Assembly (NCBI RefSeq): GCF_026421305.1
Contig: NZ_JAPJBQ010000006.1
Location: forward strand, 62,001-126,000
DNA from: Dyella silvae
GTDB lineage: Bacteria > Pseudomonadota > Gammaproteobacteria > Xanthomonadales > Rhodanobacteraceae
Length of the DNA: 64,000 nt
Direction: 5' to 3'
In this document: positions 26,737-30,294 of the stretch, one piece after another
How positions within the stretch are numbered: the first letter of the stretch is position 1
How the letters are laid out: each line of letters starts with the position of its first letter
The notes under the pieces: model-generated
Told to the model about the DNA's origin: nothing
The model's database searches: none
What the model saw: the letters and a program-made list of their open reading frames with translations, nothing else
Position numbers and translations under genes: made by a program

Positions 26737-28959
26737 TTACAGATGACCGGCGGGTAGCTTCAGTGTGACGGGCGTGCCGAGGTCTTCGGACGAGTTGCCT
26801 TCCGCCACGCCATAGTCGCCACCGCGCACCATCCAGCCGTGGGTGGCAACGTCGAAGTCCGCCAGCAGGCGACGTTCGAGCGGAATGGCCAGCTCGCGAT
26901 GTTCGCCCGCCTGCAGGAATACCTTGGTGAAGCCCGCCAGGCGTTTCGCTTTGGCACCAGGCGGCTGCACGTAGACCTGCGCCACTTCGGCTCCCGCATG
27001 CGAGCCGGTGTTGCGCACGTCCACGGTGGCGATCAACTGTCCGTCGCGCGACGACACCTTCAGCGGACCGTGTTCAAAACGGGTGTACGAAAGACCGTAG
27101 CCAAACGGGAACAACGGCTTGATATCGCGCGACTGAAACCAGCGATAGCCGATATCCGCGCCTTCGATGGCGTAGTCGACCGAGGCCGGTGGCGTGCCGC
27201 CAACTGCAGCCGGAAGCTCCGGACGCGGCAACTGGGACAGATCGCGTGGCCAGCTCAGCGGCAGACGGCCCGATGGATTGACCTTGCCCGACAGCAGGTT
27301 GGCGATAGCCACCCCACCATCGCCGCCCGGATACCAGGTCTCCAACACGGCGCCCACCTGATCGAGCCACGGCATGGCCACCGGACCGCCGTTCTCCAGC
27401 ACCACGATGGTTCGCGGGTTGGCCTTGGCGACGGCCGACACAAGTGCATCCTGTCCGTCGGGCAGGGAGATATCCGGCGCATCAAGCGATTCGGTGGCCC
27501 ATTTCTGCACAAACACCACGGCCACCTGCGACTTCGCTGCCAGCGCGGCAGCGGCCGCCACGTCGCTGCCTTCGGCAAACTGCACGTTCGCTTTCGGCGC
27601 CATTGCACGAAGGGCCTTGAGCGGCGCATAGGGGTGATACATCACGGGGCCGGGCCACTTAGTGGGTTCGAGCCCCGGCACGGCGTTGCCGCCTTTGGCA
27701 GTCACCAATGATGAGCCGCCGCCTGCCAGCACGCCCTTGTCGGCATGCGCACCGATTACCGCGACCGACGTGAGCGTGGCGGCATCCAACGGCAGCAGAT
27801 CGTGCTCGTTGCGCAACAGCACAGCGCCCGCTTCCAGCGTTTCGCGCGACACCGCGAGGTTGGCCTTGCCGTCAATCGGCGCTTTCTTCGCGGGGTGCTC
27901 AAACACACCTGTAGCGAACATGCTGCGCAAAATGCGCTGCACCATGTCGTCCACGCGCGCCTGTGTTACTTCGCCCTTGGCCAGCGCATCGCGCAACGGC
28001 GCATCGAAGAACACTTGTTGATCGAAGATTTCGCCCGCCGATTCCTGATCCAACCCCGCGTTCACGGCCTTGGCCGCGCTGTGCGCGCCACCCCAGTCGG
28101 ACATCACGAAGCCGGGATACTTCCAGTCGCGCTTGAGCACCTGATTCATCAGGTAGTCGTTCTCGCACGCCCAGTCGCCGTTGACCTTGTTGTACGAACA
28201 CATCACCGAGCCAGGCTTGCCGCGCTCGATCGCCAGTTCAAAGGCCAGCAGATCGGACTCGCGCATCGCCTGTTCGCCGATTTGCGCGTTGATGGTGTTG
28301 CGCCCGGTCTCCTGGTCGTTCAATGCAAAGTGCTTGATGGTGGAGATCACGTGCTGGCTTTGAACGCCGCGAATGGTTTCGCCGACGATAGCGCCGGCCA
28401 GCAGCGGATCCTCTCCCGCATATTCAAAGTTGCGGCCGTTGCGGGGTTCGCGCATCAGATTGATGCCACCCGCCAACAGCACATTGAACCCCTTGCTGTG
28501 CGCTTCGCTACCGATCATGGCGCCGCCACGATAGGCGATCTGCGGATCCCAGCTGGCCGCGGTGACCGGCCCGGCCGGGAGTGGTGTGGCGTCGTCGCCC
28601 GGACGCATACGGTCGGAGCTCGCGACACCAAGGCCCGCATCGCTCTCCTCCAGCGCAGGAATACCAAGCCGCGGAATCGGTGGCACATAGCCTGCGGAAG
28701 CGATGGCTCCTTTCGGAAACGGTTTGTCGGCGGGGCGATCCGGGCCCGCGTAGTAGCTGCGTATCAGCTGGAATTTTTCATCCTGCGTCAACTGCGCCAC
28801 CAGTAACTTCGCACGCGCATCCGGCGACAACGCCGTATCGCTCCATGGTGTCGCTGCGGGCGGCTGCGCCGATGCTGTACTCGTCCATGCAGACAAGCCC
28901 ATCGCTATCGCGCCCGTCAAAGCCACGCACTGCAGTGCCACTGCGGTCTTGCGCTTCAT
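26737..28959 (-). CDS. Exported GH3-family beta-glucosidase
   Basis: A 740-residue exported glycoside hydrolase. The ATG at 28959 has GGAGG 6 bases upstream and a signal peptide ending near ASAQ. Domain order: GH3 N-terminal TIM barrel with KGFNVLLAGGINLMREPRNG, STIKHFALNDQETGRN and the nucleophile region GFVMSDWGGAHS (Asp288); a GH3 C-terminal sandwich (VAVIGAHADKGVLAGGGSS, VVLENGGPVAMPWLD); and a fibronectin III-like domain (GAEVAQVYVQPPGAKAKRLAGF). It hydrolyses beta-glucosides or oligosaccharides outside the cytoplasm. Its 5' end faces the palindromic element at 29046-29318. Confidence 0.93.
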   Translation of the reverse strand: MKRKTAVALQCVALTGAIAMGLSAWTSTASAQPPAATPWSDTALSPDARAKLLVAQLTQDEKFQLIRSYYAGPDRPADKPFPKGAIASAGYVPPIPRLGIPALEESDAGLGVASSDRMRPGDDATPLPAGPVTAASWDPQIAYRGGAMIGSEAHSKGFNVLLAGGINLMREPRNGRNFEYAGEDPLLAGAIVGETIRGVQSQHVISTIKHFALNDQETGRNTINAQIGEQAMRESDLLAFELAIERGKPGSVMCSYNKVNGDWACENDYLMNQVLKRDWKYPGFVMSDWGGAHSAAKAVNAGLDQESAGEIFDQQVFFDAPLRDALAKGEVTQARVDDMVQRILRSMFATGVFEHPAKKAPIDGKANLAVSRETLEAGAVLLRNEHDLLPLDAATLTSVAVIGAHADKGVLAGGGSSLVTAKGGNAVPGLEPTKWPGPVMYHPYAPLKALRAMAPKANVQFAEGSDVAAAAALAAKSQVAVVFVQKWATESLDAPDISLPDGQDALVSAVAKANPRTIVVLENGGPVAMPWLDQVGAVLETWYPGGDGGVAIANLLSGKVNPSGRLPLSWPRDLSQLPRPELPAAVGGTPPASVDYAIEGADIGYRWFQSRDIKPLFPFGYGLSYTRFEHGPLKVSSRDGQLIATVDVRNTGSHAGAEVAQVYVQPPGAKAKRLAGFTKVFLQAGEHRELAIPLERRLLADFDVATHGWMVRGGDYGVAEGNSSEDLGTPVTLKLPAGHL

Positions 28960-29045
28960 CCGACTTCCTCCGGTGTTCGCATCGCCACGCGCTCGCCCCG
29001 GCATCACAGACGCCGCGCGTATACTCGGGCCGTTGAGTATGCACC

Positions 29046-29318
29046 AAGGGATGCTCTGATCCATTCAACGATGGCGTCACCGCTCCTGCTTGCCCGCCGG
29101 TTGGTGTTGCGCCGGCGAAGGCAGGCTGGTTGCCTGTCGAGACGGTGCGGCGCCAACCGGCGGGCAAGCAGGAGTGGCCCTCCGGGTGATGCCCAGCGAG
29201 CCCACAGGACGCGGTGCGCGGCTTGCCCAGGCAGCCAGCCTGGGCTGCGCCACGCTCCACGCCCTGCGGGCTCGCTGGGCGTCATGCCGCCATCGTTGAA
29301 TGGATCAGAGCATCCCTT
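29046..29318. repeat. 273-bp palindromic element: 31-bp perfect terminal inverted repeats enclosing two long hairpins
   Basis: Outer arms 29046-29076 and 29288-29318 are perfectly complementary over 31 bp. Inside are hairpin I, with 22-bp perfect arms 29083-29104 and 29153-29174, and hairpin II, with 13-bp perfect arms 29191-29203 and 29268-29280. Hairpin II continues as an imperfect stem to an 8-bp apex (GCCCAGGC/GCCTGGGC at about 29225-29245). As a single strand it should fold into a three-way junction. It lies between the divergent GH3 and aldo/keto reductase genes, ending 31 bases before the latter's start. No transposase is visible. Confidence 0.92.
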
Positions 29319-29349
29319 CACCCTCCCCACATCGCCTACGGAGTCCCCA

Positions 29350-30294
29350 ATGAATCTGCGTCCCCTCGGCCGGTCCTCGCTTTCGGTGGCTCCGCTCGCC
29401 TTCGGTGGCAACGTGTTCGGCTGGAGTGCCAATGAGCAGCGCTCGTTCGAACTGCTCGACGCCTTCGTTGACGCCGGCTTCAACCTGATCGACACGGCGG
29501 ACGTGTATTCGGCGTGGGTGCCGGGCAATCGCGGCGGCGAATCGGAAACCATCATCGGCAAGTGGCTCAAGCGCAGCGGCAAGCGCGACAAGGTTGTCAT
29601 CGCCACCAAGGTGGCCAAGTGGACCGAGCATCCGGGACTGTCGCCGATGAACATCAATCAGGCGGTAGAAGGCTCGCTCAAGCGCCTGCAGACGGATGTC
29701 ATCGACCTGTATCAGGCGCATGAGGATGACGCCACCGTGCCGCTGCACGAAACGCTGGAGGCGTTCGGCAAGCTGATCGAGCAAGGCAAGGTACGTGTGA
29801 TTGGTGCGTCGAATTACGGCGCAGATCGTTTCGGCGAAGCACTGGCCGTGTCCGCCAAGCTTGGCTTGCCACGCTACGAAACACTGCAGCCGGAATACAA
29901 CCTGATCAACCGCAAGCTCTACGAGAAGGAGCTCGAGCCACTGGTGATCTCCGAGAATATCGGCGTGATCAATTACTACGCGCTCGCCAGCGGCTTCCTC
30001 AGCGGCAAGTACCGTAGCGCAGCGGACCTCGCCAAGAGCGCCGCGCGTGGCGGCTCGGTGCAGAAGTACCTCAATGCGCACGGGCTCGGCGTGCTGGCGG
30101 CACTGGATAAGGTAGCTGCCGAATACAACGCCACGCCGTCGCAGGTCGCCCTGGCATGGCTGATGGCGCGCCCCAGCGTGACGGCCCCCATTGCCAGCGC
30201 CACCAGCGTGTCTCAGCTCCAGGAGCTGTTCAGTGCGGTGACGTTGCAGTTGAGCAAGGCGGATATCGCTGCGTTGGATCAGGCCAGCGCTTAA
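29350..30294 (+). CDS. Aldo/keto reductase
   Basis: A 314-residue cytoplasmic TIM-barrel oxidoreductase. Signatures are MNLRPLGRSSLSVAPLAFGG, FNLIDTADVYSAWVPG (catalytic Asp and Tyr), KVVIATKVAKW (catalytic Lys), IDLYQAHEDD (His), GKVRVIGASNYGADRF and PIASATSVSQLQEL near the cofactor site. The tetrad is complete, so NADPH-dependent reduction of an aldehyde or ketone is expected; the substrate is unknown. The frame is open far upstream through the palindromic element. The ATG at 29350 fits the family N-terminus exactly but has only weak ribosome-site similarity. Confidence 0.9.
   Translation: MNLRPLGRSSLSVAPLAFGGNVFGWSANEQRSFELLDAFVDAGFNLIDTADVYSAWVPGNRGGESETIIGKWLKRSGKRDKVVIATKVAKWTEHPGLSPMNINQAVEGSLKRLQTDVIDLYQAHEDDATVPLHETLEAFGKLIEQGKVRVIGASNYGADRFGEALAVSAKLGLPRYETLQPEYNLINRKLYEKELEPLVISENIGVINYYALASGFLSGKYRSAADLAKSAARGGSVQKYLNAHGLGVLAALDKVAAEYNATPSQVALAWLMARPSVTAPIASATSVSQLQELFSAVTLQLSKADIAALDQASA

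Follow-up and report, generated by a model that had tools for sequence, protein, structure and literature searches.

The element described here lies in a 64,000-nt stretch of the Dyella silvae genome (the window), between two divergent genes. One, on the minus strand, encodes a family-3 glycosyl hydrolase (start codon at about 28959; PF01915, E = 2e-53; PF00933, E = 3e-33), and the other encodes an aldo/keto reductase (ATG at 29350; PF00248, E = 3e-69). Arm reading confirmed the original prediction of a 273-bp palindrome with perfectly complementary 31-bp terminal arms (29046-29076 and 29288-29318). The outer stem could be extended to 34 nt (29046-29079 and 29285-29318) with 97% complementarity. 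The predicted three-way fold with two inner hairpins was also as first described, with the addition of a small hairpin at the junction. The 35-nt arms of hairpin 1 are 86% complementary and the 36-nt arms of hairpin 2 are 83% complementary. Positions are given in Table 1. The element had been taken to carry no gene, and no sign of one was seen inside it, though mechanical ORFs cross it.

The predicted folding energy of the element was -137 kcal/mol for the + strand as DNA, -241.9 kcal/mol for + strand RNA and -236.3 kcal/mol for - strand RNA. In each case none of 100 shuffled sequences matched this folding (z-scores of -17.4, -18.6 and -18.1, respectively). Folding the RNA of both strands had been proposed as a check, and both fold far better than shuffles. 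A comparison of the window with Rfam 15 gave 14 matches, all under the gathering score, and six family loci gave no match at the gathering score. Neither an intrinsic terminator (a GC-rich hairpin followed by a T run) nor any other promoter- or terminator-like site was found within 28900-29450. By eye, the promoter-like sequence GCGTATACTCG (29017-29027) is conserved upstream of the reductase gene in Dyella relatives. The element lies between this sequence and the reductase ATG, and so may be in the 5' untranslated region.

Table 1. Coordinates of the palindromic element and its parts in the window
Feature	Position	Strand	Remark
Whole palindromic element	29046..29318	+	Arm reading; bounds as in the original prediction
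IS5-type ends proper, GGATGC...GCATCC, 267 bp	29049-29315		Comparison with L285 and L288
Left flanking 4-mer, CAAG	29045..29048	.	Differs from right 4-mer
Right flanking 4-mer, CTTC	29316..29319	.	
Left terminal inverted repeat (outer stem 5' arm)	29049..29079	+	
Right terminal inverted repeat (outer stem 3' arm)	29285..29315	-	
Hairpin 1, 98 nt	29080..29177	+	Family-wide: wobble-tolerant, stabler as + strand RNA
Junction hairpin, CCC-TCC-GGG (predicted fold)	29178..29186	+	Longer in other copies
Hairpin 2, 98 nt	29187..29284	-	Family-wide: wobble-tolerant, stabler as - strand RNA

The source genome of the window (G000) gave 51 BLAST matches to the element at E ≤ 1, and reading of the outer arms in fetched loci identified at least 26 distinct dispersed elements, between 62 and 294 bp in length. 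At a cutoff of 1e-6, matches to the element occurred in 22 of the 61 genomes of relatives and in 7 of the 36 genera. The original prediction had called for a search for further copies in the parent genome and its relatives, and had set against itself the case of a single misjoined copy or of arms varying without compensation; the copies proved to be many and the variation in their arms compensated. Because elements of the same architecture are found elsewhere in the Dyella genome and in other genomes, an assembly accident is an unlikely source of the palindrome. No match to the window element was found among plasmids and phages, and none to L327 among phages.

A common plan of terminal stem, hairpin 1, small junction hairpin and hairpin 2 was seen by eye in 22 near-full-length folded copies. 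We grouped the elements by terminal sequence into three end types of our own labeling: type A (GGATGCTCTGATC...), to which the window copy belongs, type B (RGAGCCTGTTC..., GGGCGTGTCATCAATC...) and type C (GGCAACACTGATCAAGT...). The complete, single-contig genome G023 holds 21 full-length type-B copies differing from one copy at 0-6 of 263 positions, together with one 140-bp internal-deletion copy (22 places in all: L039, L258 and L262-L281). The flanks are CTAG on both sides in 21 of these 22 copies and CTAG/CTAA in the other. As judged from their sequences, the G023 copies are a recent burst, since the 21 full-length copies are near-identical and nearly all are flanked by CTAG.

The family also includes longer variants (L201, 341 bp, with ∼45 extra nt within hairpin 1; L362, 354 bp; L368, 360 bp). 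Shorter derivatives with both ends have partly or wholly lost the hairpins (L171, 62 bp; L204, 133 bp; L269, 140 bp; L174, 162 bp; L369, 168 bp; L048, 183 bp; L199, 195 bp; L314, 207 bp; L346, 208 bp; L009, 221 bp; L006, 225 bp). At L203 (G003:C2:184100-187600) two facing type-A ends stand at the unusual spacing of 501 bp, and arm reading gave no outer arms. Hairpin matches at contig ends (the end of C6 and start of C22 in G000, L182 and L181; C43, C46 and C5 in G081; C34 and C41 in G298) look as if assemblies broke at elements. REP-like palindromes (of the GTAGGAGC... type, and CGTCATCCCCGCG...) adjoin family copies at L035, L048 and L170 (768-855).

Twelve Dyella loci with the orthologous reductase were compared: in 10 the spacer between the hydrolase and reductase genes is kept and lacks the element, and the remaining two (L053 and L060) are not syntenic. 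With the element as query, the sole match among 80 compared relative loci was a 20-nt end match in L075. The joined flanks of 18 G000 copies led to uninterrupted sites in other Dyella genomes. For 13 copies, 57 loci were aligned that had been chosen for spanning the junction and are thus silent on the frequency of filled sites. A 4-bp YTAR duplication was apparent against empty sites at two G000 copies. L018 has CTAG on both sides against a single CTAG in L231 (TTAG, CTAT or CTAA in others), and L013 has TTAA on both sides against a single TTAA in L241, readable in one of four aligned loci. The window copy reads CACCAAG[GGATGC...GCATCC]CTTCACC against GCACGAAGCTCACC in L049, and shows no clean duplication because CAAG on the left differs from CTTC on the right.

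The ends of the element are shared with IS5-family transposons. An element with type-A ends in G036 (L285; 1188 bp, CTAA on both sides) encodes a 326-aa transposase (NF033581, E = 6e-105; PF01609, E = 6e-32). A second, in G035 (L288; 1196 bp, flanked by TTAG and CTAG), has type-A ends and an interrupted frame, and an IS5-type element of G039 has similar ends with CTAG, CTAA or TTAG on both sides. Because these elements carry matching ends, the outer arms can be assigned as IS5-group ends. End-matched partners of this kind were found only in other genera, L285 and L288 in two related ones. There was no match to DDE_Tnp_1 (PF01609) in G000. Two of 11 Dyella genomes searched matched this profile, with frames that were longer (486 aa) or partial; across the wider family, matches were obtained in 27 of 59 genomes. 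In a pattern search of 21 genomes, 12 of them of the same genus besides G000, no inverted end pair at 0.7-3 kb indicative of an autonomous element in Dyella was seen. With no IS5-type transposase detected in G000 and in nine of the 11 Dyella genomes searched, the element may be immobile at present. No partner was found for the G023 burst: the IS5-family gene of that genome (L294) has no matching ends, and no long element with the same ends was seen when single ends were listed, six regions inspected and three read for frames. As candidate partners in G000, Y1/RAYT (PF01797, 0 matches) and PF13340 (no match) transposases were rejected.

The original prediction had raised the possibility of a non-autonomous mobile palindrome, which is supported by the dispersed copies, the empty sites, the YTAR duplications at other copies and the IS5-family partners with the same ends. 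We regard it as very probably a mobile element. In common with MITEs it is short (267-273 bp) and non-coding, with 31-bp perfect arms, dispersed copies and empty sites; target-site duplication is seen at L018 and L013, with CTAG on both sides of 21 of the 22 G023 copies, and is not visible in the window copy. In common with the IS5 group it has ends found in an autonomous IS5-family element and a 4-bp YTAR target, not clean in the window copy. On these sequence features, the element is classed as a non-autonomous transposon (MITE) of IS5-group type.

The two ∼98-nt hairpins keep their pairing through double changes, and do so under several end types. Double Watson-Crick changes, with each type seen at least twice, occur in 68 of 111 consensus pairs among 41 type-A elements. 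For hairpin 2, a set of 51 elements of types A, B and C shows double changes in 29 of 33 predicted pairs, together with twelve columns that are invariant across the three end types. Mismatched internal loops are likewise conserved across three end types. In the set of type A and C elements, changes on both sides of a pair along the same branch numbered 179 in the stem (against 85 single-sided changes) and 124 and 130 in the hairpins.

A hairpin working as the RNA of one strand should tolerate G-T on that strand above A-C; a cruciform or arm copying predicts an excess of neither. We therefore counted G-T and A-C in elements aligned by sequence alone, with pairs taken from folds that disallowed G-U, and obtained independent events by Fitch parsimony on a single FastTree tree. 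Of 125 candidate elements (67 + 58) we excluded 19, 15 for a length outside 240-300 nt and the others as duplicates or near-identical copies; the counts cover the remaining 89 elements of types A and C and 17 of type B. Two of 60 loci in one fetched batch gave no usable arms. A hairpin 1 pair with C-A in 37 of 87 cells was retained in the counts.

The two hairpins showed opposite preferences. In a first, smaller set the counts for the whole element were near-equal (104 G-U and 119 A-C), and asymmetry appeared only with the hairpins separated. In the 89 type A and C elements, G-T and A-C cells numbered 50 and 50 in the stem, 147 and 56 in hairpin 1, and 21 and 224 in hairpin 2; the 17 type B elements gave 12 and 10, 19 and 2, and 1 and 20, respectively. 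As independent events on the top strand, the G-T:A-C ratio for types A and C was 84:19 in hairpin 1 (p = 6e-11) and 19:104 in hairpin 2 (p = 2e-15), with no preference in the outer stem (30:40, p = 0.28). Events in type B were distributed 6:8 in the stem, 13:2 in hairpin 1 and 1:16 in hairpin 2. A weaker sign test on pairs gave 23:5 (p = 9e-4) for hairpin 1 and 6:20 (p = 0.009) for hairpin 2, and in type B 7:2 (p = 0.18) and 0:12 (p = 5e-4).

Mutation bias alone is unlikely to be the cause of the asymmetry. At paired positions of hairpin 1 there were 60 C>T, 14 G>A, 13 A>G and 5 T>C changes, compared with 35, 41, 25 and 28 at unpaired positions. At paired positions of hairpin 2, G>A, C>T, T>C and A>G changes numbered 72, 12, 21 and 6, compared with 22, 12, 7 and 24 at unpaired positions, where the lean is the same for G>A against C>T (22:12) and opposite for A>G against T>C (24:7). 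Both the A>G excess and the changes at unpaired hairpin 1 positions make cytosine deamination alone an unlikely explanation. Folding energies agreed in direction: in types A and C hairpin 1 was stabler on the + strand and hairpin 2 on the - strand in 89 of 89 elements each, counts that are not independent because the apex is shared by descent. The corresponding figures in type B were 16 of 17 and 17 of 17. Outside the order the preference was weaker (9 of 11 and 7 of 11); the three plasmid elements in this comparison were oriented by the junction motif and not by the model.

Strand-specific folding of the hairpins is thus likely. The favored strand of each is the one running 5' to 3' inward from its own end, and each hairpin seems to be selected in the strand that enters from that end, probably as RNA. 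Because the wobble preference flips between the hairpins and is absent from the stem, we distinguish an outer stem that serves as transposon ends from hairpins that are strand-selected. The earlier suggestion of a structured RNA is consequently supported in a different form, for two hairpins with opposite preferred strands. It does not hold for one three-way-junction RNA, regulatory or otherwise, in view of the flip and of a stem without strand preference. A cruciform binding site, also suggested, is a poorer fit, because a preference for G-T on one strand per hairpin is not expected of an extruded cruciform.

The best overall explanation, which we consider reasonably probable, is an IS5-group MITE with two strand-specific RNA-folding hairpins. 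An element of ∼267 bp with GGATGC...GCATCC ends would be moved in trans by an IS5-family transposase, the presumed agent for the window copy, and would insert into YTAR sites (CTAG, TTAA) with a 4-bp duplication. Each hairpin would fold in RNA entering from its own side. Since transcription entering from the left reaches hairpin 1 before hairpin 2, and from the right the reverse, such a device would work in either orientation of the element. The favored strands run inward, and for this reason we prefer hairpins that act in read-through or inward RNA. They may act on read-through transcripts through end protection, processing or a block, and such action may make insertions tolerable or protect the element. 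This read-through role is put forward tentatively, from the sequence pattern, as a possibility less likely than not to be correct. Points against the overall explanation are the lack of a clean duplication in the window copy, the lack of a promoter- or terminator-like site around it, and the small share of copies lying between convergent genes (5 of 65 by a crude frame score).

The strand signal might instead reflect DNA. The hairpins would then work in single strands during transposition or replication, with the 5'-outer strand of each half folding and being bound by transposase or a host protein. G-T is better tolerated than A-C in single-stranded DNA as well, and the wobble signal is symmetrical about the element ends, as such a role would have it. 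Nevertheless, IS5-family transposases are DDE enzymes (PF01609), which act on double-stranded ends, and the Y1 transposase (PF01797) is absent from G000. Copies with a deleted interior also exist (L171 of 62 bp; L269 of 140 bp, with CTAG on both sides), although the deletion may postdate movement. On balance we think a role as single-stranded DNA improbable.

The interior might also have no function, the palindrome of an ordinary MITE being kept perfect by arm-to-arm copying through template switching or gene conversion. The very common two-sided changes on the same branch, in stem and hairpins alike, are what arm copying would produce. It does not predict opposite wobble preferences in hairpins 1 and 2, nor the conserved mismatched internal loops and the twelve invariant columns across three end types, and we judge it somewhat less probable again than the single-stranded DNA role. 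A regulatory RNA or cruciform site specific to this locus, serving the reductase or the glycosyl hydrolase, would account for the position between two gene starts and the very stable fold. However, all 10 syntenic relatives lack the element at this place, its other copies sit at other places, and a cruciform predicts no strand preference; a locus-specific function is therefore highly improbable. We accordingly retain the IS5-group MITE with strand-specific hairpins as the preferred reading.

Related hairpins extend beyond Dyella. A model of hairpin 2 (R1), with at most 13 candidates per genome scored, matched at 1e-3 at least 77 of 299 genomes and at least 30 of 85 genera of the order; 45 of the 77 genomes are in the same family, and matches in other families weaker than ∼1e-8 may be chance. 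Over the class, with at most 10 candidates scored per genome, at least 10 of 369 genomes including G000 matched at 1e-6. Nine loci from the other nine genomes were read: eight have outer arms with 24-28 of 28 pairs, lengths of 259-283 bp and several different ends, and the ninth, near a contig end, has no outer arms. Plasmid copies from Halomonas (L332), Azotobacter chroococcum (L333) and Pseudomonas aeruginosa (L334) follow this plan too and measure 269-271 bp; no outer arms were obtained for another A. chroococcum match (L331). In L332 and L333 the two hairpin loops are, by eye, exact reverse complements, which could reflect pairing between the loops or a common origin of the hairpins.

That related cores are carried by different ends suggests that ends have been exchanged between elements. 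More speculatively, and with rather low confidence, there could be a superfamily of mobile RNA devices that spans the class. Its two-hairpin chassis, each hairpin being selected to fold in inward RNA, would occur in Gammaproteobacteria (Dyella and relatives, Azotobacter, Halomonas and Pseudomonas) under several different sets of transposon ends, would outlive any single transposase, and would have conserved apices that bind a host or transposase protein.

MITE interiors are easily mistaken for leftover sequence. Here the interior is conserved by structure, with a testable strand signature, under several types of the ends that a transposase requires. If the preferred explanation is true, the element has its own function, and one can test whether tolerable or useful RNA added to neighboring transcripts is part of the reason that bacterial MITEs spread. 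For other palindromic repeats, too, the wobble-flip comparison of G-T with A-C, in which the stem serves as an internal control, can distinguish an RNA explanation from a cruciform one.

Among known repeats, REPINs consist of two inverted hairpin units, and the partner of REPs is a Y1-type transposase, for which G000 gave no match (RAYT, PF01797). TIMEs are a few hundred bp long, with terminal repeats, Tn3-type ends and 5-bp duplications. The window family resembles TIMEs in size and terminal repeats and differs in its IS5-type ends and 4-bp YTAR target; identity with TIMEs was rejected on the 4-bp duplications at L018 and L013. The available portions of the literature describe TIMEs as Tn3-derived miniature elements (PMC4133298) and REPs and REPINs as palindromic, dispersed and non-coding (PMC3733652, PMC2817692, PMC3116915), like the present family. 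In those portions REPs measure 20-40 bp, against 98-nt hairpins here.

QMITE2 of Coxiella burnetii, with 7-9 bp direct repeats and a 113-145 bp core, is another small MITE with a stable fold predicted for its full transcript (review, PMC10969869). In the available part of this review, which treats stable transcript folds of bacterial MITEs in general, the QMITE2 fold is a prediction only, unaccompanied by covariation or a strand test. The IS5-family elements L285 and L288 share the terminal repeat GGATGCTCTGA... and YTAR flanks with the window family; they differ in being ∼1.19 kb long with a transposase frame, and no twin hairpins were seen in the parts inspected. No description of a twin-hairpin element was found in the open-access literature searched. 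The closest described element found was MITEPsy1 of Pseudomonas syringae pv. phaseolicola, which likewise has IS5-like ends (GGAAGGTCTGAAAAAGCC), a 4-nt duplication (of CTAG or YTAA) and no gene, and which the IS5-family element ISPsy2 is thought to move (PMC3189936). At 100 nt it is too short for two 98-nt hairpins, and the available part of its description reports no conserved interior structure. Within the literature searched, an IS5-group MITE with such an interior is apparently new.
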